A DNA stretch of 64,000 nucleotides from Sporichthya polymorpha DSM 43042 (GTDB lineage: Bacteria > Actinomycetota > Actinomycetes > Sporichthyales > Sporichthyaceae). Position 1 is the first letter of the stretch, and each line of letters begins with the position of its first letter. Shown piece by piece: positions 6,061-64,000 of the stretch. The position numbers and the translations under genes are program-made. The notes below the pieces were generated by a model, which made no database searches, was not told where the DNA came from, and saw only the letters and a program-made list of their open reading frames with translations. The stretch covers positions 3,261,057-3,325,056 of the forward strand of contig NZ_KB913029.1 in the NCBI RefSeq assembly GCF_000384115.1, in the 5' to 3' direction.

Positions 6061-6096
6061 TTGACGTAGTAAGACAAGTGAGCCTACTTTAAGGGT
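6061..6096 (+). promoter_or_regulatory. Leaderless promoter of the MaoC-like gene
   Basis: TTGACG at 6061-6066 (-35), 18-nt spacer, TACTTT at 6085-6090 (-10), then 6 nt to the ATG at 6097. With transcription normally starting 6-7 nt after the -10, the mRNA would begin at or within a base or two of the ATG. No Shine-Dalgarno sequence is present. Confidence 0.6.
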
Positions 6097-27593: not shown

Positions 27594-27635
27594 AGCGCGA
27601 CCGTAGCGCCACGCGGGCGTCGAACGGAAGAGAAA

Positions 27636-27668
27636 CTGTAGATGATTTGCGCTCTTCTGGGCTACGGT
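27636..27668. promoter_or_regulatory. Divergent promoter with AATCAT-type element and leaderless -10
   Basis: The AATCAT-type element (TGTAGATGATTT on the plus strand, 27637-27648) points toward the lipoprotein gene. TACGGT at 27663-27668 followed by 7 nt and ATG 27676 gives a leaderless start for the DapB-like operon. Seven rightward genes depend on it. Confidence 0.55.
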
Positions 27669-27675
27669 ACGCGGC

Positions 27676-37177: not shown

Positions 37178-38101
37178 GTGCCTGCACCTGCAGAACGACT
37201 CGTTGCGGTGATCGGTGCGGGCCCCGCGGGGCTGGCCGTTGTCGAGGCCCTGCTCGCCCGGGCGAACTCCGCACTCGCCGTCGAATGGCTCGAGCGGTCC
37301 CCGCGCCCCGACGCGATGCTCCGCCACGGTCCGGCCTCCGGCGCGGAGGTGCTCCGCGGCGTCGCCCGCCGCCTCGCGGCCGTCCTCGCCGACCCGCGCG
37401 TGCGCTTCCGCGGGAACGTCTCGGTCGGAACCGACCTCTCCTGGGACGAGGTGCGCGACCGCTGCACCGCTGTCGTCGCCGCCACCGGGGCCCCGGCCGA
37501 CCGGGCGCTGCGCATCCCCGGCGCGGACGCGGTCGGCGTCGGGACGCTCACCTACCTGCGCGCCGCCCGCGCGGGGAGTGCGGACACGTACACGCCGGCG
37601 ATCGACCCGGTCGTCGACGCCGCCGTCGCCCTCGAGCCCACGGCAGCGGACGTGACGGACCTGCTCGCCGGGGTCCCGCGCGTCGAGCTGCTTGCCGGCG
37701 TCGAGCTGGTCGGCATTGTCGGGCGCAACCGGGCCCGCGCGATCCGCGTCGCCGAGCGCGGCCCCGACGGCCGCCTGCGCATCCGCGACCACCGCGCCCA
37801 GCTGGTCCTGCGTCCCCACGACCCGCGCGCCGCCGACGCCCCGCCCGCCGACGTTCTCCGCGCCGGGTGGGTCGGCCGCGACCCGGTCGTCGGCGGCTCG
37901 CACCGGGAGGACGCCGGCGCGGTCGTCGAGGCGGTGATCGCCGCCACCACGCCGGCCACCGGGCTCCCCGAACTCGGCACCGGGCTCGGGGCCTGGGACC
38001 CGATCACCGAGGTGGAGACGCTGCTCGCCCGGTTCGCGGTGGAGGGGACGCGGCCGCTCGCCGACTACGACGCCCTGCTCGCGGATGCGGACGACGACTG
38101 A
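37178..38101 (+). CDS. FprA/adrenodoxin-reductase-like flavoprotein, short form
   Basis: 307 residues. VAVIGAGPAGLAVVEALL (residues ~9-26) binds FAD, CTAVVAATGAPADRALRIPGAD near 92-115 and the terminal AGWVGRDPVVGGSHREDAGAVVEAVI region match ferredoxin-NADP reductases of the adrenodoxin-reductase class. It is far shorter than the ~450-residue family norm, the NADP domain being reduced. It might supply electrons to the P450s through an unlinked ferredoxin, or be a divergent enzyme. The GTG start is leaderless. Confidence 0.65.
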   Translation: MPAPAERLVAVIGAGPAGLAVVEALLARANSALAVEWLERSPRPDAMLRHGPASGAEVLRGVARRLAAVLADPRVRFRGNVSVGTDLSWDEVRDRCTAVVAATGAPADRALRIPGADAVGVGTLTYLRAARAGSADTYTPAIDPVVDAAVALEPTAADVTDLLAGVPRVELLAGVELVGIVGRNRARAIRVAERGPDGRLRIRDHRAQLVLRPHDPRAADAPPADVLRAGWVGRDPVVGGSHREDAGAVVEAVIAATTPATGLPELGTGLGAWDPITEVETLLARFAVEGTRPLADYDALLADADDD

Positions 38102-38121
38102 TCCTCTGCACAAACTGCGCG

Positions 38122-38134
38122 AATCATTTACACT
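38122..38134 (+). promoter_or_regulatory. Leaderless promoter with AATCAT-type element (amidohydrolase)
   Basis: AATCATTTACACT, 7 nt, ATG 38142, overlapping the end of nothing upstream (the FprA-like gene stops at 38101). Same 15-bp core as at 37158. Confidence 0.6.
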
Positions 38135-38141
38135 GTTGCGC

Positions 38142-39326
38142 ATGCCTCTGCAGGACTGGATGAAGCTCGTGTCGGTCGACGACCACGCGATCGAGACCGC
38201 CGACGTCTGGACCTCGCGGGTCCCGGCGAAGTACGGGGACGCGATCCCGCACGTCGAGGAGGTTGAGGTCGACGCGGCCCGCCTCCAGCTCGGCGCCACG
38301 GCGCACGGGCGCGTGCAGACGTGGGTCTACGCGGGCAAGCAGTACCCGCAGATCGGGCTGAACGCCGTCGCGGGCAAGGACCCGCGGACCTGGGACGTCG
38401 AGCCCGCCCGCTACGACGACATGCGCCCCGGCTGCTACGACCCGGTCGCCCGGCTCGCGGACATGGACGCCGACGGCGTCTGGGCCCAGCTCTGCTTCCC
38501 GAGCTTCGCGCGGTTCGCCGGCACCCGCTTCCTCGAGGGCGACGACCGCGCCCTCGCGCTCGACTGCATCCGCGCCTGGAACGACTGGATGCTGGAGTAC
38601 TGGTGCGGCGCCGCCCCGGACCGCTACGTGCCGGTCTGCGTCCTGCCGCTGTGGGACGTCGACGCGTGCGTCACCGAGCTCCGCCGCGCGATCGACCTCG
38701 GGGCGCGCTGCATCTCGTTCCCGGAGAACTGCTCGCCGCTCGGCCTCCCGTCGTTCCACACCGACCACTGGGACCCGGTTTTCGCCCGCGCCGAGGAGGC
38801 CGGGATGCCGCTGATGATGCACTTCGGCACCTCGGGCCGGACGCCGTTCGTCAGCCCGGACGCGCCCACGCCCGTGACGATCACTCAGATGGGCCTGAAC
38901 AGCATGTCGGCGATGGCGGATCTGCTGCTGTCGCGGACGTTCCACCAGTTCCCGGCGCTCAAGGTCGCCTTCGCCGAGGGCGGCACGGGCTGGATCCCCT
39001 ACATGCTCGAGCGCATCGACTCGGTCTGGGAGCGCCACCGCTGGTACTCCGGTGTGGACGTCGAGACCCGGCCCTCAACCCTGTTCGCCCGCAACGTCTG
39101 GGGCTGCTTCATCTCCGACCAGGCCGGCATCGACTTCCGCCACCGCATCGGCGTCGACCGCATCACCTACGAGAGCGACTACCCGCACTCGGACAGCCTG
39201 TGGCCGCACTCGCGCAAGCACCTGGCCGAGGCGCTGATCGACGTCCCCGACGAGGAGGCGCACCGCATCGTCGAGCTCAACGCGTGTGAGCTCCTCGGCT
39301 GGCGGCCCTGGGCCGAGTCGGCATGA
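38142..39326 (+). CDS. Amidohydrolase-2 family protein, copy 1
   Basis: 394 residues, metal-dependent amidohydrolase/decarboxylase fold (ACMSD-like). N-terminal SVDDHAIE corresponds to the metal-binding region, ISFPENCSPLGLPSFHTDHWDP near residue 195, MMHFGTSGR near 230 (metal His), and YESDYPHSDSLWPHSR near 345 (conserved Asp). It would hydrolyse or decarboxylate a pathway intermediate. Its product is about nine-tenths identical by eye to that of 40002-41177. Overlaps the HAD gene (ATGA). Confidence 0.83.
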   Translation: MPLQDWMKLVSVDDHAIETADVWTSRVPAKYGDAIPHVEEVEVDAARLQLGATAHGRVQTWVYAGKQYPQIGLNAVAGKDPRTWDVEPARYDDMRPGCYDPVARLADMDADGVWAQLCFPSFARFAGTRFLEGDDRALALDCIRAWNDWMLEYWCGAAPDRYVPVCVLPLWDVDACVTELRRAIDLGARCISFPENCSPLGLPSFHTDHWDPVFARAEEAGMPLMMHFGTSGRTPFVSPDAPTPVTITQMGLNSMSAMADLLLSRTFHQFPALKVAFAEGGTGWIPYMLERIDSVWERHRWYSGVDVETRPSTLFARNVWGCFISDQAGIDFRHRIGVDRITYESDYPHSDSLWPHSRKHLAEALIDVPDEEAHRIVELNACELLGWRPWAESA

Positions 39327-40001: not shown

Positions 40002-41177
40002 ATGCCGCTGCAGGACTTCATGAAGCTGGTCTCCGTCGACGACCACGCGATCGAGACCGCGGACGTCTGGACCTCCCGCGTCCCCGCGAAGTACGGGGAC
40101 GCGATCCCGCACGTGGAGGAGGTGGAGGTCGACACCGTCCGGCTGCAACTGAACGCGACGGCGCACGGCCGGGTGCAGACGTGGGTCTACGCCGGGAAGA
40201 CCTATCCCTCGATCGGGCTGAACGCGGTCGCGGGCAAGGACCCGCGAACCTGGGACGTCGAGCCGGCCCGGTTCGACGACATGCGGCCGGGTTGCTACGA
40301 CCCGGTCGCGCGGCTCGCGGACATGGACGCCGACGGGGTGTGGGCCCAGCTGTGCTTCCCGAGCTTCCCGCGCTTCGCCGGGACGCGTTTCCTCGAAGGT
40401 GAGGACCGCGCCCTGGCGCTCGACTGCATCCGCGCCTGGAACGACTGGATGCTGGAGTACTGGTGCGGCGTCGCGCCGGACCGGTACATCCCCGTCTGCG
40501 TGCTGCCGCTGTGGGATCTCGACGCGTGCGTGACCGAACTGCGGCGCGCGATCGACCTCGGGGCGCGCTGCATCTCGTTCCCGGAGAACTGCTCGCCGCT
40601 CGGGCTGCCGTCCTTCCACACCGACCACTGGGACCCGGTTTTCGCCCGCGCCGAGGAGGCCGGGATGCCGCTGATGATGCACTTCGGCACCTCGGGCCGG
40701 ACGCCCTTCGTCAGCCCTGACGCCCCGGCCCCGGTCGTGGTGTCGCAGATGGGCTTGAACAGCATGTCGGCGACGGCCGACCTTCTTCTCTCGCCCACGT
40801 TCCACAAGTTTCCCCGGCTTCAGGTCGCCCTCGCGGAGGGCGGGACGGGCTGGATCCCGTACCTGCTCGAGCGCATCGACTCGGTGTGGGAGCGCCACCG
40901 CTGGTACTCCGGCGTCGACGTCGAGACCCGGCCCTCCACCCTGTTCGCCCGGAACATGTGGGGCTGCTTCATCACCGACCAGGCCGGCATCGACCTCCGC
41001 CACCGCATCGGCGTCGACCGCCTGCTGTACGAGAGCGACTACCCGCACTCCGACAGCCTGTGGCCACACTCGCGCAAGCACCTCGCCGAGGCGCTGACCG
41101 ACGTCCCCGACGACGAGGCCCACCGGATCGCCGAGCTCAACGCCTGCGAGCTGCTGCGCTGGCGGCCCTGGGTCTAG
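40002..41177 (+). CDS. Amidohydrolase-2 family protein, copy 2
   Basis: 391 residues, near-duplicate of 38142-39326 with all metal-binding positions kept (SVDDHAIE, MMHFGTSGR, YESDYPHSDS). Differences are scattered conservative changes; the carboxy-terminus is three residues shorter. A 92-bp stretch (40614-40705) is base-for-base identical to copy 1 while flanking codons differ at silent sites, suggesting gene conversion. ATG 40002 has AGGAG upstream, unlike the leaderless copy 1, so the two are controlled differently. Confidence 0.83.
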   Translation: MPLQDFMKLVSVDDHAIETADVWTSRVPAKYGDAIPHVEEVEVDTVRLQLNATAHGRVQTWVYAGKTYPSIGLNAVAGKDPRTWDVEPARFDDMRPGCYDPVARLADMDADGVWAQLCFPSFPRFAGTRFLEGEDRALALDCIRAWNDWMLEYWCGVAPDRYIPVCVLPLWDLDACVTELRRAIDLGARCISFPENCSPLGLPSFHTDHWDPVFARAEEAGMPLMMHFGTSGRTPFVSPDAPAPVVVSQMGLNSMSATADLLLSPTFHKFPRLQVALAEGGTGWIPYLLERIDSVWERHRWYSGVDVETRPSTLFARNMWGCFITDQAGIDLRHRIGVDRLLYESDYPHSDSLWPHSRKHLAEALTDVPDDEAHRIAELNACELLRWRPWV

Positions 41178-41181
41178 CGCC

Positions 41182-41931
41182 TCAGGGCTGGACCGCGGGC
41201 GGCATCCGGAGCCGGACCGGGGGAGCGGGAGTCGTGCGGCGGGCGGCGTCGAGGCGGGCCAGCAGCGGGATCATCACCCCGAGGTCGACGACGAGCATCA
41301 GCAGGCCGGCGAGGCGCTGGTCGGCGACGACGGAGAGCCCGCCGAGTCCGTCCGTGCCGCCGTGCATCGGGTCGGTCGTGAGGAGCAGCGCGAGGCCGAG
41401 GAGCGCGTTCGCCTGTCCGGCGAGGACGAGCGCGATCTGCCGTGCGGCCGGTGGAGCGACGCGGTGCCCGGTCCCGAGAACGCATCGCCAGAACAGGTAG
41501 CCGGTCGCGAGGACGCTGATCGCGCGCACGATCTCCCACGTCGTCTCCTCGACCGCGCCGTGGACGTCGGGCAGGTGCCAGAACCACATCACCGCGGGAG
41601 CGGCGAGGGTGGCGGCGAACAGCAGCCGCCGAGCGCCGGGACGCGGCCGCGGATCGTTCGCCGGCAGCGTCAGCGCGAGCACCAAAGGCACCAGGACGCC
41701 GAGCGCGACGAGTTGCGTCATCAGCACGAGGTGCGAGCCGGTGCCGTCGTGCTGATGCCCCGTCACGGGAGCGGTCAGGCTCCGCGCGATCGCCCACGCC
41801 GTCCCGAGCTCCACGACGGCGACGCCGAGCAGCAGGCCGAGACTCGGCCCCCGCGACCGCGCGCCGTCGCCCAGCCCGAGCAGCCGCCGCAACCGGGCGA
41901 TCATCATCGCCACGAGCAGGCAGCAGGCCAC
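41182..41931 (-). CDS. CtaG-like membrane protein (cytochrome c oxidase assembly family)
   Basis: 249 residues with about six or seven hydrophobic helices. The caa3_CtaG pattern is visible: GSHLVLMTQLVALGVLVPLVLAL, MWFWHLPDVHGAVEE, LLGLALLLTTDPMHGG and VVADQRLAGLLMLVVDL. Family members are linked to copper delivery to oxidases. Here it ends an operon with an SDR and a linalool-dehydratase-like protein rather than with oxidase genes, which is unusual. GTG 41931 leaves 7 nt to the upstream stop; ATG codons at 41907 and 41904 are alternatives. Confidence 0.72.
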   Translation of the reverse strand: MACCLLVAMMIARLRRLLGLGDGARSRGPSLGLLLGVAVVELGTAWAIARSLTAPVTGHQHDGTGSHLVLMTQLVALGVLVPLVLALTLPANDPRPRPGARRLLFAATLAAPAVMWFWHLPDVHGAVEETTWEIVRAISVLATGYLFWRCVLGTGHRVAPPAARQIALVLAGQANALLGLALLLTTDPMHGGTDGLGGLSVVADQRLAGLLMLVVDLGVMIPLLARLDAARRTTPAPPVRLRMPPAVQP

Positions 41932-41938
41932 GGTGGCC

Positions 41939-43792
41939 CTACCCGGCCCGCAGGTCGAGGGTGGTCGGGCCGGTCAGCCGCACGCGGTGCTGCGCGCGCC
42001 CGTCCGCGTCGGCGGCGAAGGACTCGCCCGCGAGCCGGTACGTCGCACCGGGGCGCAGCCGGTCGAACGCGAGGTCGGTGTCGGTCGCCTGGCCCGCGAC
42101 GTCGAGGACGAACGACGCCCCGTCCGGGGTCGGGTACGCGGCCCGCAGCACGACGTCCGAGCGCGACACCGCCGCCAGGCGCGGCCCGTCGTACCGGCTG
42201 CGGCCGGTCAGGGCGGCGTGCAGCCCACCGGGAACGCCGAGGCGGCCCATCGCCGTCATGTTCCGCGTCATGCTGGACAGCCCCGCGCGGTTCCCGGCGG
42301 CGTCGGCCGGCCAGGTGCGATCGATGGTTCGGATCGCGTCGTCGGCGATGTCGACGTCACCCATCTCGCGGGCCGCGGCGGCCAGCACCGAGTGCGCGGC
42401 GGCGGTGTTGCGGCGGTAGTTGCCGGGGTCGAGGTTGTCGAGCGGCGTCGTCGTGAGGCGGACGAGGCCGTCGTCCCCGATCCGGACGAACTGATGCCGG
42501 TAGATCGCCCACTGCCGCGCGGCGATGTCGGGGTAGAGGCCGTGGAGCAGAAACGTCACGTACAGGTCCGAGGCCCGCGCGGTGCCGGGGAGGAAGGCAC
42601 CGAGGTGTTTGCTCCGCACGACCTTGAGTGAGCCGTCCCGCAGCGTGAACTCGCGCTCGAGCGTCTCGCGGAAGCGAGGGCGCAGGTCCGCGCTGTACTG
42701 CGTGCCGGTCGCGGAATCGTGGGCGGTGAGACCGGAGAGCGCGATGACGTTGCAGATCAGGTACGTCCAGTTCGGCTCGCACGGGTACGCGCAGACGTAG
42801 GACTCGGCCATCTGGCGCGCGACCTGCTCGGCGATCGTGTCCGCGTCGTAGGCGTACCGGTGCCGGCCGTCGTCGAAGGTGAGCGCGCCGGGGGAGCGGA
42901 ATCGCTGGTCGCCGGTCGCGGCCTCGTAGAGCCCGATCGACAGCAGGAGATACCCGCTGAGCATGACGTTCTCGCGGTGGATGGGATCGGGGTCCCAGCG
43001 CAGGTTGCCGACGAGGTTCTCGTACCGCCAGTACGTCCACACCTTCGGCGCGAGGTGCTTGACGATGAGGTTCCGCTGCGCCTCGCCGAGCCACCCGTCG
43101 AACGCGGGGTACCGGCCGGCGTGGGCGAGCGAGAGTGCCCACCCTGCGGTCGTGAGCTGGTACCGCCAGGCGGCTTCGCGGAACTGGTCGATGGTCGTGA
43201 AGCCCTCGAAGCTGTCCAGCGGCTGCAGCGCGAGATCGGTCAGCGGGCGCAGCGCGTCGAGGTCGGCGTCGGTGAACGGCTCCGGGGCCGGCGGCGTGGG
43301 GACGGCCCACGAACGGTTCGTCAGGACCTCGTTGAGTTCGCGCCCGCGGCGCCGGGCCACGCTCTGCTTCGCCCGGTCCGCCACCGCGGCGAGGGCGACC
43401 AGCAGGACCACGGTGACCGGGACCGCGAAGCGCGTCTCGTCCGCACGGCCGTCCGCGGCGACGGCGCCGAGCAGGGCGGCCGTCGCCCAGACCAACGGGG
43501 GACCGAGCACGATTCCGACGAGCAGCCAGCCGAACAGCGCGGCGAGGAACAACCCGGCCGCGACGGGGGCGAGCCACCAGAGCTCGCCCATCAGCAGCCC
43601 TGCGCCGGGGAGGGCCAGGCCGGCGCCGATCGCGGCGACGCGGTCGTTGCCGAGCGCGATCAGGGCCAGCGCGAGACCTTCGAGGGCGAGGAAGGACAGC
43701 AGCGCCCGGCGGACGATCCGCGCCGTGTTCGGTCCCCGCGCCGGGGCTTCCGGGTCCAGCAGGGGCAGGGGACGTTCGGCGACAGCCGTCAT
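41939..43792 (-). CDS. Membrane-anchored linalool dehydratase/isomerase-like protein
   Basis: 617 residues. About four to five hydrophobic helices occupy residues 28-140, followed by an alpha-alpha-barrel domain like linalool dehydratase/isomerase (Ldi). Seen directly: DQFREAAWRYQLTTAGWALSLAH (from Asp202), WTYWRYENLVGNLRWDPDPIHRENVMLSGYLLLSIGLY (252-289), and AYPCEPNWTYLICN with Cys338 and Cys347. The nine-residue spacing equals that of the catalytic Cys171/Cys180 of Castellaniella Ldi (from memory). A beta-rich tail follows residue ~540. Ldi isomerises or dehydrates tertiary allylic terpene alcohols; here a membrane-bound relative is expected. Operon: SDR upstream (1 nt gap), CtaG-like downstream. 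A second copy starts at 63206. Confidence 0.85.
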   Translation of the reverse strand: MTAVAERPLPLLDPEAPARGPNTARIVRRALLSFLALEGLALALIALGNDRVAAIGAGLALPGAGLLMGELWWLAPVAAGLFLAALFGWLLVGIVLGPPLVWATAALLGAVAADGRADETRFAVPVTVVLLVALAAVADRAKQSVARRRGRELNEVLTNRSWAVPTPPAPEPFTDADLDALRPLTDLALQPLDSFEGFTTIDQFREAAWRYQLTTAGWALSLAHAGRYPAFDGWLGEAQRNLIVKHLAPKVWTYWRYENLVGNLRWDPDPIHRENVMLSGYLLLSIGLYEAATGDQRFRSPGALTFDDGRHRYAYDADTIAEQVARQMAESYVCAYPCEPNWTYLICNVIALSGLTAHDSATGTQYSADLRPRFRETLEREFTLRDGSLKVVRSKHLGAFLPGTARASDLYVTFLLHGLYPDIAARQWAIYRHQFVRIGDDGLVRLTTTPLDNLDPGNYRRNTAAAHSVLAAAAREMGDVDIADDAIRTIDRTWPADAAGNRAGLSSMTRNMTAMGRLGVPGGLHAALTGRSRYDGPRLAAVSRSDVVLRAAYPTPDGASFVLDVAGQATDTDLAFDRLRPGATYRLAGESFAADADGRAQHRVRLTGPTTLDLRAG

Positions 43793-43793: not shown

Positions 43794-44561
43794 TCAGTCC
43801 ACGAGGTCGGCGAGGCGGGTGTTCTGGACCTTGCGCATGATGGCCGGGCTGATCCGTTCCGCGATCGCGCCGCCCTTCGCGACGGCGCCCGGCACGATCA
43901 TCAGCTTCTTGCGTGCGAGGCCCTTCTCGATCCCGGCGACGATCTTCTCCGGCGTCGTGGCCATCGAGCGCTTGCGCTTCTTGGGGTCGGCGAAGAAGTC
44001 CTTCGCCATGGGTGTCGCGACCGCGGCCGGGCAGACGATGCCGATCGTCACGCCCTGGTGGCCGTGCTCGTGGTGCAGGCTGACGAGGTAGTTGATGACG
44101 GCGGCCTTCGTCGCGCCGTAGGCGGCCATCTTCTTCGGCGGGACGAGGCCGGTCGCGGAGGCGAGGATCGCGAACTCGCCACGGCCGCGCGCGAGCATCA
44201 GCGGGAACACGGTGTCGACGAGGTTCACGACGCCGAAGAAGTTCACCCGCACCATGAGTTCGACGTCGGCCTGGGAAACCTCGAGCGTCGGACCGACGCG
44301 CGCGATGCCGGCGCTGCCCAGGACGTGCTCGATCGGCCCGACCGCCTCGATCTGACGGACCGTCTCGGCGAGGGCGGCCCGGTCGCCGACGTCGGTGTTC
44401 CAGGGCATCACGGCGGTCCCGAACTGCTCGACGACCGCGTCGAGGTTCTGCTTCGCGACGTCGATGACCGCGACCCGGTACCCGCGCTGGACGAGTCGGC
44501 GCGTGGCCGCGAGGCCGATCCCGCTGGCGCCGCCCGTCACGAGAGCGATCGGCTGAGCCAT
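43794..44561 (-). CDS. SDR-family oxidoreductase
   Basis: 255 residues, classical SDR. ALVTGGASGIGLAATRRLVQRGY (residues ~6-28), SAGIARVGP near 83, catalytic YGATK near 150. It probably oxidises or reduces the alcohol or ketone made by or fed to the linalool-dehydratase-like enzyme. ATG 44561 has GGAGG; an upstream ATG at 44573 is less well placed. It is first in the operon, with the operator-like palindrome 44574-44593 only 12 bp before the start. The carboxy-terminal ~50 residues are basic, as in SDR members annotated only as oxidoreductases. Confidence 0.86.
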   Translation of the reverse strand: MAQPIALVTGGASGIGLAATRRLVQRGYRVAVIDVAKQNLDAVVEQFGTAVMPWNTDVGDRAALAETVRQIEAVGPIEHVLGSAGIARVGPTLEVSQADVELMVRVNFFGVVNLVDTVFPLMLARGRGEFAILASATGLVPPKKMAAYGATKAAVINYLVSLHHEHGHQGVTIGIVCPAAVATPMAKDFFADPKKRKRSMATTPEKIVAGIEKGLARKKLMIVPGAVAKGGAIAERISPAIMRKVQNTRLADLVD

Positions 44562-44573
44562 CTGGACCTCCAT

Positions 44574-44620: not shown

Positions 44621-45649
44621 TCACCAGGCCCGAGCGGCGGGTCCGTCGAGGACCGCGGCGCGCACGTCGGCGGCGTCACCCAGCCGGGCCCGCAGTCCGT
44701 GCGCCCGCCGGAGCCGCAGGTGCGCGTCGACCTCCCAGGTGAAGCCCATGCCGCCGTGGTTCTGGATGTCGTCGCGGGCGTTCGTCACCGCCGCGTCGCT
44801 CGCGACCAGCAGCGCGCTCGCCGCCAGCTGCCCCGCACCCCCAGGGGGTGTCACCCTTTCGTCGGGGTTTTCCACAGCGGCGAGCGCGGCGAGGAGGGCC
44901 AGCTGGGTCGCGGCGTCGGCGCGGGTGGCCATGTCGGCGCAGCGTTGCTGGACCATCTGGAACGACCCGATCGGGCGGCCGAACTGCTCGCGGACCGCGG
45001 TGTGAGCGACGCTGGCCGCGACCGAGGCCTGGGCGAGGCCGGCCAGGTAGGCGGCGACGAGGACGGTCGCGAGCGTCCAGGCCGCCGGGCCCTCGGCGTA
45101 CCGGGCCGCGGCGTCGACGGCGACCCGGGCCGGGCGGGCGCCGGGGTCCATCGAGTCGGGCGTCGGCTCGACCGTCACGGCCGCCTCGACGAGCGCCGCC
45201 CCGGTGGGGGAGAGGACGAGCCAGGCCGCGGCGTCCTCGCGGTCGTCGGTGCGGAAGGTCCCGGTGACGCGGGGACCAAGTGCTGACGGTGCGTCAGCAA
45301 CCCCGTCGGCAACGAGGACGCCGACGGGCAGGCCGCCGATCAGCTCGGCGGACGGGAACAGGGTCGCGGCGACCGTGGTCCCGAGATAGGGCCCCGCGGT
45401 CAGGGTGCGGCCGAGCTCGCGGTGGAGCAGGGCGAGCTCCCCGGCGCCGAGGCCGAGACCGCCCGCCTCCTCGGGAACGGCGAGGCCGAACCAGCCCTGG
45501 GCGGCGGCCTTCTCCCAGACGCCGGCGTCGCGAACGGGGCCGTCGGCGCGGGCGCGGAGGGCCGCGGCGGCTGCCGCCGGGTCGAGCAGGTCGACGGCGG
45601 CGTCGACGATCGCGCGCTGCACGTCGTCGGGGACGAGGTCGAGAGGCAT
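44621..45649 (-). CDS. Acyl-CoA dehydrogenase, smaller subunit of a pair
   Basis: 342 residues. FGLAVPEEAGGLGLGAGELALLHRELGR near residue 54, VREQFGRPIGSFQMVQQRCADMATRADAATQ near 215, DIQNHGGMGFTWEVDAHLRLRRAHGL near 292: the small-subunit pattern also seen at 5079 and 48145. An in-frame piece around residues 257-270 (VENPDERVTPPGG) is encoded by DNA matching half of the dispersed terminator element (44846-44876), as if the repeat had entered the gene without breaking it. The partner is probably 45654-46817, 4 nt upstream. Confidence 0.84.
   Translation of the reverse strand: MPLDLVPDDVQRAIVDAAVDLLDPAAAAAALRARADGPVRDAGVWEKAAAQGWFGLAVPEEAGGLGLGAGELALLHRELGRTLTAGPYLGTTVAATLFPSAELIGGLPVGVLVADGVADAPSALGPRVTGTFRTDDREDAAAWLVLSPTGAALVEAAVTVEPTPDSMDPGARPARVAVDAAARYAEGPAAWTLATVLVAAYLAGLAQASVAASVAHTAVREQFGRPIGSFQMVQQRCADMATRADAATQLALLAALAAVENPDERVTPPGGAGQLAASALLVASDAAVTNARDDIQNHGGMGFTWEVDAHLRLRRAHGLRARLGDAADVRAAVLDGPAARAW
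44846..44876. repeat. Half-copy of the dispersed terminator element inside a coding region
   Basis: GGGTGTCACCCTTTC followed after a few bases by GTTTTCCACAG, the same succession as the right arm and flank of the element at 19214-19263. It lies in frame within the acyl-CoA dehydrogenase gene on the minus strand. Confidence 0.5.
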
Positions 45650-45653: not shown

Positions 45654-46817
45654 TCACCGCCCCCGGGGCAGACCGAGGACGCGTTCGGCGACGATGCCGC
45701 GCTGGACGTCCTTGGTGCCGGCCGCGATCGTCGTCGCGAACAGGTAGAGGTAGTCGTGGACCCACGGGCTGCCCTCGGCCAGGCCCTCGAGCCCGCGCAG
45801 GTCGACGGCGAGTGCCGCGACCCGCTGCTGCAGTTGCGAGAAGAGCAGCCGGACCATCGACGCCTCCGGCCCCGGCTGCGAGCTGCGGGCGTTGCGGCTG
45901 ATGACGGCGAGGGTCATCGCCAGCACCGCGTGCGCCTCGGCGCGGGCGGTGGCGAGACGCTCGGCGAGACCGGAGTCCTCGATCAGCGCCCGGCCGGCGC
46001 GGTCGGTCCGGGTCCGGGCGAGGTCGACGAGCTCGTCCACCCGGGCGACCAGCTCGACCTGCTCGGGGAGGAAGCCGGTGCCGCGCTCGAAGGAGAGCGT
46101 CGACATCGCGACGCGCCACCCGTCGTCGACGGCGCCGACGACGTTGGTCAGCGGGATGCGGACGTCGTCGTAGAAGACCTCGCAGAAGTCGTCGTGCCCG
46201 GTGATCGTGCGGATCGGGCGGACCTCGATGCCGGGGGTGTCCATCGGGCACACGACCCAGGTGATCCCGTCCTGGCGGCGCGCGCCGGTGGACGTGCGCA
46301 CGAGCAGTTCCTGCTGCTGGGCGTGGTGGGCGTAGGACGTCCAGATCTTCTGGCCGTTGACGACGAGGTGGTCGCCGTCGATCACCGCGCGCGTCGAGAG
46401 GCCGGCGAGGTCGCTGCCCGCGCCGGGCTCGCTGAAGCCCTGGCACCAGATCTCCTCGCCGGAGAGGATCCGCGGCAGGTGACGCTGCTTCAGTTCCTCG
46501 TCGGCGCAGGCGATCAGCGTCGGGCCGGCGTGCGCGTTGCCGACGAAGCAGACCCCGGTCTCGGTCGGCGCCCCCGCGCGGGCGTACTCGGAGTACCAGA
46601 TCACCTGCTGCACGAGCGAGAGCCCGCGGCCGCCGTACTCGGCCGGCCAGGAGATGCCGGCCCACCCCGCGTCGAACTGCCGGCGCTGCCAGGCGACGTC
46701 GAACTCGACCATCGCCGGACCGGCCGGTGGGCGGCGCTCGCGGGGCGCGTTCTCGGCGAGCCAGGTCGCGACCTCGTCGCGGAAGGCGCGCTCGGAGGCG
46801 TTGAGGGTGAGATCCAC
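45654..46817 (-). CDS. Acyl-CoA dehydrogenase, larger subunit of a pair
   Basis: 387 residues. WCQGFSEPGAGSDLAGLSTRAVIDGDHLVVNGQKIWTSYAHHAQ (residues ~125-168), YDDVRIPLTNVVGAVDDGWRVAMSTL near 215, and FATTIAAGTKDVQRGIVAERVLGLPRG at the end. FAD-dependent alpha,beta-desaturation of an acyl-CoA is expected. Co-transcribed with the small subunit 4 nt downstream. GTG 46817 start; the 80-bp gap to the divergent gene at 46898 contains an AATCAT-type element. Confidence 0.88.
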   Translation of the reverse strand: MDLTLNASERAFRDEVATWLAENAPRERRPPAGPAMVEFDVAWQRRQFDAGWAGISWPAEYGGRGLSLVQQVIWYSEYARAGAPTETGVCFVGNAHAGPTLIACADEELKQRHLPRILSGEEIWCQGFSEPGAGSDLAGLSTRAVIDGDHLVVNGQKIWTSYAHHAQQQELLVRTSTGARRQDGITWVVCPMDTPGIEVRPIRTITGHDDFCEVFYDDVRIPLTNVVGAVDDGWRVAMSTLSFERGTGFLPEQVELVARVDELVDLARTRTDRAGRALIEDSGLAERLATARAEAHAVLAMTLAVISRNARSSQPGPEASMVRLLFSQLQQRVAALAVDLRGLEGLAEGSPWVHDYLYLFATTIAAGTKDVQRGIVAERVLGLPRGR

Positions 46818-48144: not shown

Positions 48145-49275
48145 TCAGGAGGCAGCGGCGGCGACCTGGCGTTCGAGGACGGAGACGGCGCGTTCGCGCC
48201 AGTAGGACGGAGAGCCGAAGAGGACCTCGTCGGCCTTCGCGCGCCGGAGGTAGAGGTGGCAGACGTGCTCCCAGGTGAAGCCGATGCCGCCGTGGACCTG
48301 GAGGCAGTCCTGGGCGACCTTGACGGCGGCGTCGGCGCAGTGGCCCGCGGTCGTGGCGCAGACGAGCTCGGCCTCGTCGTCGGTCGGGTCGGCACCGCGG
48401 CCGTCGTCGAGGATCCCGGTGGCGCTCCACAGCAGGCTGCGTGAGCCCTCGACGGCGAGGAGCATGTCCGCGCACAGGTGCTTGATCGCCTGGAACGACC
48501 CGATCGGCTTGCCGAACTGGACGCGGACCTTCGCGTACTCGACGGCGAGGTCGAGGCACGCCTGCGCGAGGCCGACCTGCTCGGCGGCGAGGAGGACGGC
48601 CGCGGTCCGCGACCAGGTCAGCAACGCCTCGGCGGCGGGGACGCCCTCGAGCAACAGGGTCGCGGGCGCGGAGGACAGGGTCACGGTCCCGACCGGACGC
48701 AGCAGGTCGAGGCCGCCGTGGACCTCGACGGTGGCGACGCCGGGCTCCACCACGAACAGCCCCGGCCCGTCGGGGGTCGTCGCGCTGACGACCAGCCGCG
48801 CGCCCACCGGGTCGGTCACGTAGCACTTGACGCCGGTGAGCTCCCACCCGTCGCCGGCCGGGACCGCGCTCGTCTCGGGGGCTGCGAGCCAGCCCGCGGA
48901 GCCCTCCGCGAGCGCGACCGTGACGACCGATCCCGCGGCCGCGTCGGCGAGCAGCGCCGGAACCGACGGGGCACCGGTGGCCGCGAGCAACGAGACCGCG
49001 ACACCCACCGACAGCAACGGCGACGGCGCGAGGGCGACACCGCACTCCTCGAGCGCGGCCGCGAGGTCACCGGGCGATCCACCCTGACCGCCGAGTTCCT
49101 CGCCGACGTGCAGCGTCGGCAGCCCGACCTTCACCAACGCGGACCACAGCGCCTCGGACGGGCCGGAGTCCAGCGCCGCCCGCACCTGCTCGGGGCTCGC
49201 GTGGTCGGCCAGCACGTCGCGCACGGCCTCGCGCAGCGCGGTGCGGTCCTCGTTCTCGCCCTCCACAGCGGGCAT
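48145..49275 (-). CDS. Acyl-CoA dehydrogenase, smaller-subunit type
   Basis: 376 residues. A weakly conserved first half (LPTLHVGEELGGQGGSPGDLAAALEECG near residue 52), then YAKVRVQFGKPIGSFQAIKHLCADMLLAVEGSRSLLW near 245 and DCLQVHGGIGFTWEHVCHLYLRRAKADEVLFGSP near 318. It is last in the leftward ABC-transporter operon, overlapping the epimerase-fusion stop (ATGA), so import, epimerase and desaturation functions share one transcript. Probable partner: 46898-48058. Confidence 0.86.
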   Translation of the reverse strand: MPAVEGENEDRTALREAVRDVLADHASPEQVRAALDSGPSEALWSALVKVGLPTLHVGEELGGQGGSPGDLAAALEECGVALAPSPLLSVGVAVSLLAATGAPSVPALLADAAAGSVVTVALAEGSAGWLAAPETSAVPAGDGWELTGVKCYVTDPVGARLVVSATTPDGPGLFVVEPGVATVEVHGGLDLLRPVGTVTLSSAPATLLLEGVPAAEALLTWSRTAAVLLAAEQVGLAQACLDLAVEYAKVRVQFGKPIGSFQAIKHLCADMLLAVEGSRSLLWSATGILDDGRGADPTDDEAELVCATTAGHCADAAVKVAQDCLQVHGGIGFTWEHVCHLYLRRAKADEVLFGSPSYWRERAVSVLERQVAAAAS

Positions 49276-51917
49276 CAGTTCTCCCCGTCGGGTCGGGCGC
49301 CGATCTCAAGTCCGTCGCTCAGCACGGTAACCCGGCCGGTGCTGCCGTCCACCTCGACGGTCTGCCCGGTCCGGAGCCGGCGGCTCGCCGCCGGCACCGA
49401 GACGACGCAGGGAATCCCGCACTCCCGCGCGACGACCGCCGCGTGCGACATCTGCCCACCGGTGTCGGTGATGACGGCGGCCGCGAGACCGAAGTACGGC
49501 GTCCAGCCGGCGTCGGTGTAGGCCGCGACGAGGATCTCGTCGGGCTCCAGATCCTCGAGGGCGTCGGCGTCGAGCACCCGGACCGTCCCGCGCACGACCC
49601 CGGGAGAGACGCCGATCCCCGTCGCCGTGTCGCCGGCGTGCAGGGACTCGTCGGCGGCCTCGGGCTCCCACGTCCTCGAGAAGAACGTCGGGACGCGGAT
49701 GCTCTTCAGCCGCTCCCGCTCGGCCCGCCGTCGCGCGACCACCGCGCGCGCGTCCGCCGGGGGTGCGAGCAACTGATCGAACGTCAGGTAGAACGCGTCG
49801 TCGGGACCGTCGAGGACACCGGCGGTCATCAGCCGCCGGCCCCGTTCCAACGCGGCGAGCCGATAACCGTGGGTGCCCCGGACCCAGGCGTCGCGCCCGA
49901 GCTCGCGGTCGTGCTGCAGCCGGTGGCACCAGGCGGCGAGCGGCCGCAGGTGGGCCGGGACCGCGGGCGGAGGCGTCAGCGCGCGGGGCGGGTGCTGCGC
50001 CAGCTTCGCGATCACCTCCAGGAACCGGTGCGGGGCGACGGCGAAGACGTCGCTCGCGAGCTCCAGCTCCCGCGGGCCCCGGTGCCCGTGCTCGGCCAGC
50101 GCGGCGCGGACCCGCTCGGCGAAAGCCGGATGCGTCCGGGCCAGCACGGCCGGGGCGGCCGGGCCGTCGGCCAGCGCGGCGGTCACGGCCGCGGGGAGAG
50201 TGCCGTCGGCGCGGACCTCGTCGGCCAGCCGGCCCGCGGCCCGCAGCGCCGCGGCGCTCGCGAGGTCGGTGTCGTCCGCCCGTCCGGTGATGAGCACGTC
50301 GAGGCCGCGCTGCTCCAGCGCACTTGCGACCGCCGCCACGAACGCGGCCGCGTTCGAGGACACCGTCGACGCGTCGATCGTGACGTCGTGCAGCAGCCCG
50401 AGCCGGGCGATCAGCTGCTCGTCGGTCAGTTCGCGCAGTGCACCGGGGTCGAGCACCACGCCGCGCACCTCCCGGTCCACACGCTCCGACTCCCGCCGGA
50501 CCGCCGCGATCGCGCGCACGGCGGCGGCACCGATGCGGGCCTTGTCCCGCACGCTCAGAGCGAAGTGAGGCGCCGTCACCTTGGCGTCGCCGAACAGCGA
50601 CTCCCACCCGGCGTCCTCGCTCGCGCCGGGCATCGCGTTGGACAGGGCGACGATCACCGACATGTTGGCGAACACGCCGTGGCCGAACGACGCGGTCGAG
50701 CGGTCCGCGACCAGTTCCGCGATCTCGTGGGGGAGTTGAACCAGATCGCCCATCGCGGCCCCCGCGGTGCGCATGCAGTTCAACGAGAGCTCGAGGGCCA
50801 GCGGCGTCATCGGCCCCGGCATCGCCTCGGAGGTGTTCGCCGAGGAGTAGTCCGGCAGCGCCGGGTCGACGAGGGAGTCGAACTCGCCGTTGAGCCCCTC
50901 CGGACCGGCCGGATACATCGACTCCGTGACCGGCGCCGCCGGCCGGACGTGCCCCCGGTACCCGAACGGCGAGCGGGCCGGCAGCGCGCGGCCGAGGATG
51001 TGGGTCCGCCCCGCCGCTGCCCGCGCGAAGTCCTCGACGCACTCGCGCGAGGTCCACGCGCAACGGAAGCCCAGTTCGTCCAAGCGCGCGGGGTCGACGA
51101 TCGGGAACCACAGCAGGCCCCGGAAGCTGCCCGGGTCGAGTTCGCCCACCCCGGCCCGCCACAATCCGGCGACCAGCTTCTCCAGCGCGGACCGCGAGAG
51201 CTCCACGTACCGGCGTCCGAGGATCGACGCGATCTCACGCATCGTCAGGGTGTCGGGGGCGGCGAGGTTCACCGGCCCCGCCCAGCGCTCCCCGACCGCC
51301 TGGGCGAAGAACCGCCCGACGTCCTCGGGGTGCACGAACTGCATCGTGTTCGTGTAACCCTTCACCCCCGGGAGCACCGGCGTCGCGAAGTTCGACGCGA
51401 TGATGTTGTCCGCCGAACGCCCGATCACGGTCCCGGCGCGCACCATCAGCGCGTCCAGCCCGGCCTCGACGATCATCCGCTCCGCGTCGACCTTGTGGAG
51501 CGAGTAGAAGCTCTCCGGATCCGGCCGCTGCGGGGAGGTCTCGCTCAGTCGTGGCGGGTTGTCCGGGTGGCACCCGTAGGACATCACGCTGGACGCGAAT
51601 ACCAGTCGCTTCACGCCGTGCGCGTTCATGGCGTCGACGACGTTGCGCGTCCCGCCGAGGTCGATGCTGCGGGTGATCGAGACGTCCTTGTTCGGCACCA
51701 GGTTCCACGCGAGGTGGACGACCGCGTCCATGCCCTCGACGGCGCGCCGGACCCCGTCGGCGTCGCGGATGTCCGCGGCGCGGTAGTCGGCCATGCCCGC
51801 CGGCAGCCGTTCGGGCCGCGACCGAGACAGGCCGACGACCTCGTGCCCGTGCAGCGCGAGGCGCCGGACGACGTCCCGGCCGAACACCCCGGACGCCCCG
51901 GTGACGAGGACCCTCAC
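49275..51917 (-). CDS. Fusion: NAD-dependent epimerase/dehydratase plus PEP-utilising swivel domain (paralogue)
   Basis: 880 residues, same architecture as 13704-16361. Epimerase part: VTGASGVFGRDVVRRL, FASSVMSYGCHPD, catalytic Tyr-Lys in YSLHK. Middle part: SSANTSEAMPGPMTPLALEL. Swivel part: GGQMSHAAVVARECGIPCVV with candidate phospho-His825. No ATP-grasp domain. GTG start overlaps the LivF-like stop (GTGA). The conserved fusion in two otherwise different operons argues for a real bifunctional or scaffolded enzyme. The phosphoryl donor and the substrate are unknown. Confidence 0.82.
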   Translation of the reverse strand: MRVLVTGASGVFGRDVVRRLALHGHEVVGLSRSRPERLPAGMADYRAADIRDADGVRRAVEGMDAVVHLAWNLVPNKDVSITRSIDLGGTRNVVDAMNAHGVKRLVFASSVMSYGCHPDNPPRLSETSPQRPDPESFYSLHKVDAERMIVEAGLDALMVRAGTVIGRSADNIIASNFATPVLPGVKGYTNTMQFVHPEDVGRFFAQAVGERWAGPVNLAAPDTLTMREIASILGRRYVELSRSALEKLVAGLWRAGVGELDPGSFRGLLWFPIVDPARLDELGFRCAWTSRECVEDFARAAAGRTHILGRALPARSPFGYRGHVRPAAPVTESMYPAGPEGLNGEFDSLVDPALPDYSSANTSEAMPGPMTPLALELSLNCMRTAGAAMGDLVQLPHEIAELVADRSTASFGHGVFANMSVIVALSNAMPGASEDAGWESLFGDAKVTAPHFALSVRDKARIGAAAVRAIAAVRRESERVDREVRGVVLDPGALRELTDEQLIARLGLLHDVTIDASTVSSNAAAFVAAVASALEQRGLDVLITGRADDTDLASAAALRAAGRLADEVRADGTLPAAVTAALADGPAAPAVLARTHPAFAERVRAALAEHGHRGPRELELASDVFAVAPHRFLEVIAKLAQHPPRALTPPPAVPAHLRPLAAWCHRLQHDRELGRDAWVRGTHGYRLAALERGRRLMTAGVLDGPDDAFYLTFDQLLAPPADARAVVARRRAERERLKSIRVPTFFSRTWEPEAADESLHAGDTATGIGVSPGVVRGTVRVLDADALEDLEPDEILVAAYTDAGWTPYFGLAAAVITDTGGQMSHAAVVARECGIPCVVSVPAASRRLRTGQTVEVDGSTGRVTVLSDGLEIGARPDGEN

Positions 51918-63205: not shown

Positions 63206-64000
63206 GTGACGACCCTGGCCCACCCGAACGCCGAAGCAGACCTCCTGATCAGTCCGCGGACCGGGGGAGGTCCGGTCGCCAAGGTGCGCCGCCGGCGCAG
63301 CGTCGCCGTCTGGATCGTGCTCTGCGTCCTCGGCGCGTTCCCGAGCCTGCTCGACGCGGGCGCCGGCCGGCAGGCCGCCGGGCTCGGCCTGTTCTTCCCC
63401 GGTGCCGGGTTCCTCGCCGCCGAGGGCTGGATGGTCGTCCTCGTCCTGCCGTGCCTGCTCCTGATGGGCCTCGCCTGGGTCGCGTGGTTCGGCGCGGGCA
63501 TGGTCGTCGCCCCGGTGATCGTCTGGCTCGGCTCCGCCGCGGCCGCCGGTGCCCTCGTCGGCGACACGACCGACGCGGGCCTGCCGATCGTCGCCGCCGT
63601 CACCGTCGTGGGTCTGCTCGGCGGTGCCGTCGCCTCCCGTGCCCAGCAACGCAAGGCCGTCGCCCGACGGGAGGAGCGCAACACCGTGCTGCCCGCGCAG
63701 CTCGACGAGGTGAACGCGATCCGCGCCCGGGCGATCGCGGCACCCAAGGCGCCCGAGATGAGCGCCGAGCAACTCAAGGGGATCCGGTACGCGCTCGACC
63801 TCGCGATGCAGCCGAAGGACGACTGGAGCGGCTTCAACCGCGTCGACCAGTTCCAGACCTCGGCGCTGCGCTACCAGATCAACCAGCTCGGCTGGATGCT
63901 GGCGCTCGCGCAGAGCCGTTACGCCCCGAGCCACCACGGTGAGCTGAGTGAGGGTCAGATCCGGCTGGTCGACCGGTACCTGCAGAAGGACGTCTGCAGC
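63206..64000 (+). CDS. Second linalool dehydratase/isomerase-like membrane protein, N-terminal part
   Basis: The frame from GTG 63206 stays open for 265 codons to the window edge. Residues ~33-145 form four to five hydrophobic helices (including GLFFPGAGFLAAEGWMVVLVLPCLLLMGLAW). From ~195 the sequence ALDLAMQPKDDWSGFNRVDQFQTSALRYQINQLGWMLALAQSRY matches TDLALQPLDSFEGFTTIDQFREAAWRYQLTTAGWALSLAHAGRY in the protein at 41939-43792, so it is a paralogue with the same layout. The catalytic Cys pair lies beyond the edge. AGAGGA precedes the start. Regulated by the adjacent TetR through 63153-63172 (inferred). Confidence 0.83.
   Translation, partial: MTTLAHPNAEADLLISPRTGGGPVAKVRRRRSVAVWIVLCVLGAFPSLLDAGAGRQAAGLGLFFPGAGFLAAEGWMVVLVLPCLLLMGLAWVAWFGAGMVVAPVIVWLGSAAAAGALVGDTTDAGLPIVAAVTVVGLLGGAVASRAQQRKAVARREERNTVLPAQLDEVNAIRARAIAAPKAPEMSAEQLKGIRYALDLAMQPKDDWSGFNRVDQFQTSALRYQINQLGWMLALAQSRYAPSHHGELSEGQIRLVDRYLQKDVCS

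Follow-up and report, generated by a model that had tools for sequence, protein, structure and literature searches.

The locus considered here raises the question of what a protein resembling the linalool dehydratase/isomerase (Ldi) of Castellaniella defragrans does when it is fused to a set of membrane helices and encoded between a short-chain dehydrogenase (SDR) and a CtaG-like membrane protein. The window, i.e. the whole stretch of 64,000 nucleotides of Sporichthya polymorpha DSM 43042 that was analysed, also contains part of a second gene of the same family, and the features on which our answer is based are collected in Table 1.

Table 1. Features of the Ldi-like locus (positions counted from the first nucleotide of the window)
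Feature	Position	Strand	Basis
Membrane-anchored Ldi-family protein (PF18566), 617 aa	41939..43792	minus	ORF, ATG start
N-terminal membrane domain, residues 21-158	43319..43732	minus	AlphaFold2, hydropathy, K/R profile
(alpha/alpha)6 barrel, residues 167-534	42191..43294	minus	AlphaFold2 and VIA-align
C-terminal beta domain, residues 538-616, mostly beta strands, common to Lis	41945..42181	minus	AlphaFold2, full-length alignment
Cys338, equivalent of Ldi Cys170	42779..42781	minus	alignment, 97/97 Cys
Cys347, equivalent of Ldi Cys179	42752..42754	minus	alignment, 97/97 Cys
SDR, upstream of the Ldi-like gene with a 1-nt gap	43794..44573	minus	adh_short E 2.8e-45
Divergent CtaG-like membrane protein, downstream of the Ldi-like gene with a 7-nt gap	41182..41931	minus	Caa3_CtaG E 3.1e-13
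Acyl-CoA dehydrogenase-like protein	44621..45649	minus	Acyl-CoA_dh_1 E 4.8e-17
Acyl-CoA dehydrogenase	45654..46817	minus	PimC model E 5.5e-67, under its cut-off
Second Ldi-family paralogue, N-terminal part, runs off the window end	63206..64000	plus	start codon chosen by position

The open reading frame has a third-position GC of 0.94, and its product matches the Pfam Ldi family with an E-value of 2e-82 (277.7 bits for a curated cut-off of 26.1) and the PDB Ldi sequence with an E-value of 6.9e-15. In the AlphaFold2 model (pLDDT 93.3), membrane helices, an (alpha/alpha)6 barrel and a beta tail follow each other from the N- to the C-terminus. This order bears out an earlier note on this DNA, which had described about 140 residues of membrane helices in front of Ldi-like segments and a beta-rich tail behind them, and had proposed structure prediction as a check for an alpha-alpha barrel. 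Indeed, the best match of the barrel is Ldi itself (5i3t_B; VIA-align Z 37.1, 331 aligned residues, rmsd 2.4, 20% identity), the next fold outside Ldi reaching Z 21.0, and Foldseek gives an E-value of 6e-12 for the barrel against Ldi.

The membrane domain is composed, in the model, of helices 21-46, 50-60, 64-68, 74-92, 97-112 and 120-158. It encloses a conserved PG.G motif at residues 62-65, with P62 and G93 invariant in 44/44 relatives, and clusters of Lys and Arg lie ahead of the first helix and behind the last one. The model suggests four transmembrane helices and, probably, a re-entrant hairpin around PG.G; five membrane helices would be a less likely arrangement. Neither a sequence profile search of this domain against the PDB (no match at E <= 0.001) nor structure searches (Foldseek best E 3.3; VIA best Z 4.0) gave a clear match, which does not imply a new fold. 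The idea of a widely used anchor was rejected, since a search of the own genome with the membrane-domain profile returned the two Ldi-family proteins only (2/2, E 0.01). For the C-terminal beta domain, the sequence profile search against the PDB gave nothing at E <= 0.001 (best 0.011).

The two cysteines with nine-residue spacing to which the earlier note had drawn attention align with the catalytic Cys pair of Ldi, and their invariance in all 97 collected sequences excludes a chance resemblance. This count is valid for the collected set: the weak relatives L010, L011 and L018 were left out of every family count, and L010 and L011, in which no hydrophobic 19-mer exceeds the threshold and neither a CEP nor a CQP motif occurs, indicate that a more divergent group without membrane part and Cys motif exists. 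The Tyr65 and Met124 columns of Ldi are likewise identical in 97/97 (Tyr211 and Met277 in the window protein). The Asp38 column contains D in 90 and E in 4 of the 97 sequences; Asp186 occupies it in three MAFFT modes, while the global alignment of hhalign shifts the register by two residues. At the column of the active-site His128, where W (44), F (28), Y (24) and N (1) are found (n=97), the window protein has Y281. This tyrosine is no argument against activity, because Lis, the isomerase-active enzyme of Thauera linaloolentis, carries E at the Asp38 column and W at the His128 column. The whole protein contains three cysteines (334, 338 and 347), and the disulfide Cys48-Cys101, which caps the cavity of Ldi, has no equivalent in it (A248 at the Cys101 column), as expected for the reducing cytoplasm. 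With changes near the Cys pair, it departs from most of the 44 relatives at several positions, namely W261V (W in 44/44), G283L (39), N327Q (41), L335A (39) and G351A (38).

Compared with Ldi (LinD; PDB 5HLR/5G1U/5I3T), the window protein thus has the same (alpha/alpha)6 barrel, the equivalents of Cys170/Cys179, Tyr65 and Met124 and, judging from the alignments, probably that of Asp38, whereas His128 and the disulfide are not kept and Tyr44 has no clear counterpart. Ldi is a soluble periplasmic enzyme secreted via a signal peptide, both of its reactions needing the same reduced Cys pair (PMC6600392), and its mature chain of 371 residues is too short to include the membrane domain or the tail; the window protein has membrane-type helices instead. 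In Ldi, a neighbouring subunit of the pentamer completes the active site. The different topology claimed by the earlier note therefore stands against the secreted Castellaniella enzyme. It is not new, because the membrane-anchored architecture of Lis from T. linaloolentis 47Lol (EC 5.4.4.4) was published in 2016 (PMC4791888) and is common in the family, 92/97 collected sequences passing a crude test for it; a "new topology for Ldi" was consequently rejected, the architecture being already known from Lis. Among the titles and abstracts found in literature searches, a membrane-anchored enzyme of the Ldi family is named in the Thauera paper only.

Lis and the window protein share the order of their parts (a membrane domain of about 140 residues with four predicted helices, the Ldi barrel and the beta tail) and are co-linear over 648 columns, with 32% identity over the full length (E 7e-87). 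Both have the Cys pair and an aromatic residue instead of His128, and both lack the Cys48-Cys101 disulfide. For the window protein, the positive-inside pattern and the missing disulfide agree with a putative cytoplasmic barrel of the Lis type. Lis and Ldi are not alike in stereoselectivity, nor, as reported in PMC4791888, in dehydratase activity; the different reaction that the earlier note had considered may thus apply to the window protein as well. Lis is characterised by a linalool/geraniol isomerase activity that a reductant activates, and its expression in E. coli gave an inactive enzyme (PMC4791888). The lis gene is described downstream of atuCFE (PMC4847356), and our locus L066 (record NZ_AMXE01000039), with a 644-aa lis gene and a 545-aa AtuC upstream, is the published one, the gene lengths agreeing with that paper. 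The gene partners differ, since acyl-CoA dehydrogenases (ACADs), the SDR and the CtaG-like gene accompany the window gene and atuCFE precedes lis (PMC4847356). Orthology between the two proteins was rejected by a constraint tree (p-AU 0.00016), for which the Lis clade was chosen after the first tree had been seen. As the window protein falls outside the Lis clade, the activity of Lis is not transferable to it. Linalool is a possible substrate that we do not favour.

A scan of genome records gave 158 relatives. The best 80 of them come from Actinomycetota, Pseudomonadota, Myxococcota and one unlabelled record; they were ranked with the full-length query, which favours members of the membrane type, and 34 of the 80 loci are shorter than 19 kb. 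To our knowledge, Lis is the sole one among these best 80 of the 158 relatives to have been assayed. The 92 of 97 collected sequences with a membrane part were recognised by a crude test; the five below its threshold have weaker stretches (L034, L067 and L015) or are N-terminally truncated as called (L063 and L090). Three loci (L012, L013 and L017) are repeats of the window gene, L009 and L006. With the Pfam model, the phylum sample gave 10 matches in 6/296 genomes, nine full-length with an N-terminal extension and one fragment, and eight of these nine pass the membrane threshold (L015 being weak). The class sample gave 21 matches in 14/393 genomes (17 strong, 4 weak and partial), membrane helices having been checked in part of the 21; the class scan itself, in which up to 6 candidates were scored per genome, gave at least 3/393. 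Among viral contigs, 5 pattern matches contained no relative. The first tree had 98 rows and the second 90, leaving out Ldi, three long-branch rows, two duplicates and two truncated ORFs. The window protein is an isolated lineage; at the deeper nodes, these two trees position the window pair differently.

The earlier note had also placed the SDR and the CtaG-like protein in one operon with the Ldi-like gene, in agreement with the common strand and the gaps of 1 and 7 nt. Upstream of the SDR, and in the same orientation, lie both acyl-CoA dehydrogenase genes. The product of the shorter one, which is perhaps a small subunit, also matches the IpdE2 model (E 3.6e-28), yet far under the cut-off of that model. 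The CtaG-like protein matches PF09678 with 50.1 bits (cut-off 27.7) and is the weakest of the six CtaG matches in the genome. It looks dedicated because the five stronger genes sit elsewhere, and it may have a role other than oxidase assembly. P450s and many ACADs are present in the window. The better-scoring models for its thiolase and CoA ligase are general ones, the steroid thiolase and steroid-24-oyl-CoA synthetase models coming among the lower-ranked matches, below their cut-offs. A search of the own genome with the Thauera AtuC found eight homologues, three of them at 45-48% identity, among which geranyl-CoA and methylcrotonyl-CoA carboxylases were not told apart.

This operon is kept in genome G003, with identities of 93% for the acyl-CoA dehydrogenase, 69% for the acyl-CoA dehydrogenase-like protein, 83% for the SDR, 75% for the Ldi-like protein and 66% for the CtaG-like protein. 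In genome G002, of the same genus, the surrounding genes are kept (SDR 96%, CtaG-like 91%) and exactly this Ldi gene is lacking. The SDR and CtaG-like genes thus do not depend on it, although G002 encodes two further members of the Ldi family at full length. Rows of Ldi, SDR, CtaG-like and aldehyde dehydrogenase (ALDH) genes were found, from ORF lists and a profile, in three mycobacterial relatives (L026, L037 and L059; 3/80 relatives), and a CtaG-like gene of this type in none of the 20 control stretches. In these rows the same three gene types adjoin as in the window, and the Ldi-like proteins are 35% identical to the window's. Unlike in the window, Ldi comes first and ALDH fourth, the SDR and CtaG-like genes overlap after Ldi in L026 and L037, and the mycobacterial Ldi-family proteins form a separate clade of the tree; L059 has a further Ldi-family gene behind ALDH. 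We know of no assay of the Ldi-family genes of these three loci. Recurrence in 3/80 relatives and in G003 makes the SDR/CtaG operon more than a coincidence, and the low identities between the two settings (26-30% for the SDR, about 34-37% for the CtaG-like protein) suggest that it might have been assembled twice.

For catabolic genes in general (ACAD, ALDH, SDR, ECH, thiolase, CoA ligase and P450), the surroundings of the 80 relatives showed no significant enrichment over 20 control stretches of the genome to which the window belongs (Fisher p 0.11 to 1.0), a control that favours the own genome because the queries come from it; the SDR of locus L102, where neighbouring frames are fused in the ORF list, was located by tblastn. 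The transport genes of the window are rarer near the relatives than in the controls: ABC transporter genes in 4/80 vs 7/20 (p 0.001), binding-protein genes in 0/80 vs 3/20 (p 0.007) and permease genes in 0/80 vs 2/20 (p 0.038).

The second paralogue is complete (653 aa) in locus L009 and is 36% identical to the first copy. The two belong to the same family and the same region of the genome, and both have the membrane part. L009 differs by grouping with Nocardioides marmoriginsengisoli in a different clade, and its neighbours are an enoyl-CoA hydratase, a thiolase, an SDR, a CoA ligase and a TetR gene.

We propose that the window protein is a Lis-like, membrane-anchored member of the Ldi family which shifts the hydroxyl of an allylic isoprenoid alcohol, the SDR oxidising the product; taken as a whole, this explanation seems to us reasonably probable. 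The transmembrane helices and the PG.G hairpin would keep the barrel at the cytoplasmic side of the membrane, and an allylic isoprenoid alcohol dissolved in the membrane would enter it. The reduced Cys338 and Cys347, aided by an acid (probably Asp186), would take off the hydroxyl as water, which would re-add at the far end of the allyl cation, so that a tertiary alcohol would become a primary one by a 1,3 hydroxyl shift; some alkene may be formed or hydrated on the way. The SDR, together with the aldehyde dehydrogenase of the same row in the mycobacterial version, would convert the primary alcohol into the acid; CoA activation of this acid and its degradation through acyl-CoA dehydrogenases and thiolases would follow. 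As the SDR and CtaG-like core persists without this Ldi gene, the probable contribution of the Ldi-like enzyme is a way in for tertiary alcohols.

An enzyme that acts mainly as a hydratase/dehydratase between alkene and tertiary alcohol, with little isomerase activity, would agree with the use of one reduced Cys pair for both reactions of Ldi (PMC6600392) and with residue 351, which is Ala in the window protein and in Ldi and Gly in 38/44 relatives. We regard it as unlikely, however: the residue equivalent to His128 is aromatic as in Lis, whose dehydratase activity differs from that of Ldi (PMC4791888), the architecture and the tail go with Lis, and the adjoining SDR, plus ALDH in mycobacteria, suits a primary alcohol product better. 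The substrate may also be a larger isoprenoid, e.g. a steroid or triterpenoid with a tertiary alcohol in its side chain, the hydroxyl of which would be moved or removed before this chain is degraded. For Sterolibacterium, an Ldi-like step that turns 25- into 26-hydroxycholestenone has been proposed (PMC3691188), records of Steroidobacter, Sterolibacteriaceae, Mycobacterium and Rhodococcus include relatives, and the P450s, the ACADs and the low-ranking steroid models mentioned above point the same way, as do the smaller side chains of W261V and L335A, which could widen the pocket. This substrate nevertheless appears quite improbable, given that no steroid-ring degradation gene was identified within the window, that the thiolase and the ligase score better with general models, and that G283L and G351A would point the opposite way.

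Finally, the isolated lineage, the changes at otherwise conserved positions and the sister genome that does without the gene could be read as signs of a membrane protein that has lost its catalysis or been repurposed. Against this stand both cysteines, Tyr211 and Met277, all kept, and the copy of G003, which at 75% identity in the same operon fits continued selection; we hold such a loss to be very improbable. The hydroxyl shift followed by oxidation remains our preferred explanation.

A more far-reaching version of the proposal, possible but rather doubtful in our eyes, is that of a membrane module of Actinomycetota made of an Ldi-like hydroxyl mutase with a gated membrane part, an SDR and a divergent CtaG-like partner that is not an assembly factor. 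An isoprenoid dissolved in the membrane, not linalool, would pass a gate formed by the PG.G hairpin, P62 and G93; the CtaG-like protein would be the partner of the enzyme in the membrane, and the SDR would act next. The Ldi gene itself would be an entry piece that can be exchanged and that the sister species naturally lacks. As a lead, the recurrent CtaG-like partner was not met in the literature passages covered. G002, of the same genus and without exactly this gene, offers a natural comparison. Needing no cofactor to make or break tertiary allylic alcohols, enzymes of the Ldi type are of use in terpene and alkene chemistry, and the window protein adds to them a candidate that is well modelled, stems from an isolated lineage and has conserved gene partners.

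The Ldi-like gene of the window encodes 617 residues, with a coding-like codon-position GC, and Pfam recognised in its product a single family, that of the linalool dehydratase/isomerase (Ldi) of Castellaniella defragrans (PF18566, residues 210-496, E 2e-82); a search of NCBIfam at E 0.1 returned nothing. The significant matches of a single-sequence search against the PDB were Ldi entries only (best E 6.9e-15). The AlphaFold2 model, computed from 45 aligned sequences (that of the window protein plus 44 taken from named genome records), reached a mean pLDDT of 93.3 and a pTM of 0.92, with predicted helices at 21-46, 50-60, 64-68, 74-92, 97-112 and 120-158, then a helical barrel, and mostly strands at 538-616. 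Ldi chains ranked top in Foldseek (E 6e-12), and in VIA-align model residues 167-534 matched 5i3t_B with Z 37.1 (331 aligned, rmsd 2.4, 20% identity), versus Z 21.0 for the best non-Ldi barrel, GH105. Because Ldi ranks top in both comparisons, the alpha-alpha barrel expected by the earlier note is recovered and no objection can be drawn from the fold.

The same note regarded the topology as distinct from that of Ldi. The membrane helices ahead of the barrel and the beta tail are present, but this membrane-anchored architecture is already known, since the linalool isomerase (Lis) of Thauera linaloolentis 47Lol aligned with the window protein over its whole length (209/648 identical, 32%, E 7e-87). 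As described by Marmulla et al. in 2016 (PMC4791888), Lis has 644 residues, four predicted transmembrane helices within the first 139 and a predicted cytosolic C-terminal domain with 20% identity to Ldi; its activity, located in the inner membrane and activated by a reductant, converts geraniol into both linalool enantiomers, and expression in E. coli gave no activity. Our genome scan recovered the Lis locus (L066, NZ_AMXE01000039), where the 644-aa Ldi-family gene lies downstream of a 545-aa AtuC, a layout that agrees with PMC4847356.

The mean hydropathy of the 45 sequences shows a high stretch between residues 30 and 136, approximately. Lys/Arg are frequent at 24-29 (98% in column 29) and once more beyond about 138, with low frequencies in between (31% in column 53, 13% in column 121, 18% in column 137, at most 11% in the others). 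Judged from this pattern, the domain fits four membrane helices with both ends cytoplasmic, leaving some room for a fifth, and 50-68 fits a re-entrant hairpin around a conserved PG.G motif. Predicted alone, the membrane domain gave the same helices (pLDDT 91.0); its model had no clear match among PDB structures, and its profile matched only the two Ldi-family proteins in the window genome.

Active-site columns were read across 97 collected family sequences, using a mature Ldi sequence identical to 5HLR (371/371 residues). PMC12455561 gives His128, Tyr44, Asp38, Cys179 and Cys170 as key residues of Ldi, and according to PMC6600392 its cavity is capped by a Cys48-Cys101 disulfide while Cys170 and Cys179 stay reduced. 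The pair Cys338/Cys347, proposed earlier as the counterpart of the catalytic cysteines, indeed falls in the Cys170 and Cys179 columns and is invariant (97/97), as are Y211 (Tyr65 column) and M277 (Met124 column). D186 occupies the Asp38 column in three MAFFT modes (D in 90 and E in 4 of 97), the global hhalign alignment being 2 residues off, and Y281 occupies that of His128 (W 44, F 28, Y 24, N 1). In this alignment of 97 sequences, Ldi Tyr44 has no clear counterpart in the window protein, and Cys48 and Cys101 are absent from it. Thauera Lis carries E in the Asp38 column and W in the His128 column, so that isomerase activity is compatible with the loss of His128. These two residues of Lis could also bear on the difference in stereoselectivity between Ldi and Lis.

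A genome-contig scan yielded 158 relatives, and the best 80 of the 158, which were retained, are labelled Actinomycetota, Pseudomonadota or Myxococcota, apart from one unlabelled bacterium. By a crude threshold the membrane domain is present in 92 of the 97 collected sequences, a set biased towards such members; the weak relatives L010 and L011 have neither the membrane part nor the Cys motif. PF18566 occurs in 6/296 sampled genomes of the phylum and 14/393 of the class. The only tree partner of the window protein is a G003 protein that shares 75% identity with it (G003 is of the same family but another genus). The two form an isolated pair, separated from Lis by about 3.3 changes per column in the second tree, and their deeper placement differs between the two trees. 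Constraining the pair to group with the Lis clade, a grouping chosen after the first tree, was rejected (cost of 98 log-likelihood units, p-AU 0.00016). Of the columns conserved to 85% or more among 44 relatives, the window protein deviates at 18, including W261V, G283L, N327Q, L335A and G351A in the barrel, and the aligned G003 protein carries the same letters at all five. Since A335 and A351 lie on either side of the Cys pair, and L283 comes after the His128 position, the pocket may be remodelled.

Features of the window, with identity to the G003 counterpart
Feature	Position	Strand	Remarks	Identity (%)
Acyl-CoA dehydrogenase (ACAD)	45654-46817	-	first in same-strand row	93
ACAD	44621-45649	-	second	69
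Short-chain dehydrogenase (SDR)	43794-44573	-	third, 1-nt gap to Ldi-like gene	83
Ldi-like	41939-43792	-	fourth	75
CtaG-like	41182-41931	-	fifth, 7-nt gap from Ldi-like gene	66
Second membrane-type Ldi-family gene	63206-64000, on to ~65164 beyond the window	+	36% identical to first, other clade	
Amidohydrolases	38085-39326; 40002-41177	+	HAD hydrolase between	
Long two-domain proteins	13704-16361; 49275-51917	-	N-terminal NAD-epimerase, C-terminal PEP-utiliser mobile domain	
EcKL/APH-like kinase	18364-19209			
Periplasmic-binding-type proteins	26100-27965; 31612-33084; 56606-58123		with ABC ATPase and BPD_transp_2 permease	

The operon with SDR and CtaG-like genes announced by the earlier note holds, both genes adjoining the Ldi-like gene on the same strand, and these gene types recur in mycobacteria, where three relatives (L026, L037 and L059) have Ldi-like, SDR, CtaG-like and aldehyde dehydrogenase (ALDH) genes in a row. 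In L059 (8941-16146) a second Ldi-family gene follows the ALDH. The mycobacterial SDRs are 26-30% and the CtaG-like proteins about 34-37% (best local matches) identical to those of the window; the L037 CtaG-like protein scores just above the Pfam CtaG cut-off, and those of L026 and L059 have no Pfam match, though 46-49% identical to it. A profile built from five CtaG-like proteins, including those of G003, L026, L037 and L059, detected this type in these 3 of the best 80 of 158 relatives and in G003, all four within the profile, and in 0/20 control stretches. At E 1e-15 this type occurs in at least 3 of 393 sampled genomes of the class (the window's, G003, and G002, which is of the same genus as the window genome). 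Given its recurrence beside Ldi-like and SDR genes, and five other, stronger CtaG genes in the window genome (E 1e-54 to 1e-82, against only 2e-12 for this one), the CtaG-like gene probably forms a set with the SDR and Ldi-like genes rather than encoding the general oxidase assembly factor.

G002 keeps the listed window genes, ALDH through binding protein, in the same order (70-99% identity), but the Ldi gene is missing (L159, G002:C14:84000-103900, ~5698-7214), the SDR stop codon overlapping the CtaG-like start codon; tblastn of the window Ldi protein against this locus gave no match at E 1. As the more distant G003 has the gene at the same place, the simpler explanation is that G002 lost it. 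One gene, and no other, is naturally absent from this locus. G002 carries two further full-length Ldi-family genes, one of which shares 93% identity with the second Ldi-family gene of the window genome.

The wider region contains further ACADs, two P450s, thiolases, enoyl-CoA hydratases, CoA ligases, an aldehyde dehydrogenase and branched-chain-type ABC transporter parts, and the second Ldi-family gene adjoins enoyl-CoA hydratase, thiolase, SDR, CoA ligase and TetR genes. Such catabolic gene types lie near the Ldi-family gene at 6 to 16 loci of the best 80 of 158 relatives, against 0 to 2 of 20 stretches taken as controls from the window's own genome, which is no significant excess (Fisher p 0.11 to 1.0); transporter genes are less frequent at the relatives' loci than in these controls. 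These counts do not establish a general catabolic setting for the family as a whole. The two amidohydrolases share 92% identity across 390 residues and are a tandem duplication, present in G002 too. The long protein at 49275-51917 aligns lengthwise with the PRK05865 model, far below its cut-off, and PEP synthase structures align with the C-terminal part of the protein; its gene is near the Ldi operon in G003 too. A cluster with an APH-type phosphotransferase representative lies near the Ldi-family gene in 14/80 loci (best 80 of 158; e.g. L047:9599-10645), and the window has its EcKL/APH-like kinase; a link to alcohol phosphorylation is possible. The three binding proteins, with the ATPase and permease, possibly form an uptake system for the catabolic region.

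From the family, fold, residues and gene neighbourhood, which the analysis established, we infer chemistry, sidedness and pathway order, with the Ldi/Lis mechanism as the best-supported reading. The substrate would be drawn from the membrane; Ldi/Lis-type acid-base chemistry, by reduced Cys338/Cys347 and an acid, would form an allyl cation, with a subsequent 1,3 hydroxyl shift, and the product would be oxidised by SDR and ALDH before CoA-dependent breakdown. Three carboxylase subunits in the window genome have 45-48% identity to Thauera AtuC, geranyl-CoA and methylcrotonyl-CoA carboxylase not being told apart. Other substrates can be envisaged: for cholesterol side chains, a step of Ldi type has been proposed in the past (PMC3691188), and conversion of myrcene to geraniol by a Rhodococcus strain is reported in PMC4097962, with an unclear enzyme system. 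Within the known membrane-anchored kind, the window protein is a separate lineage with recurrent SDR and CtaG-like partners.
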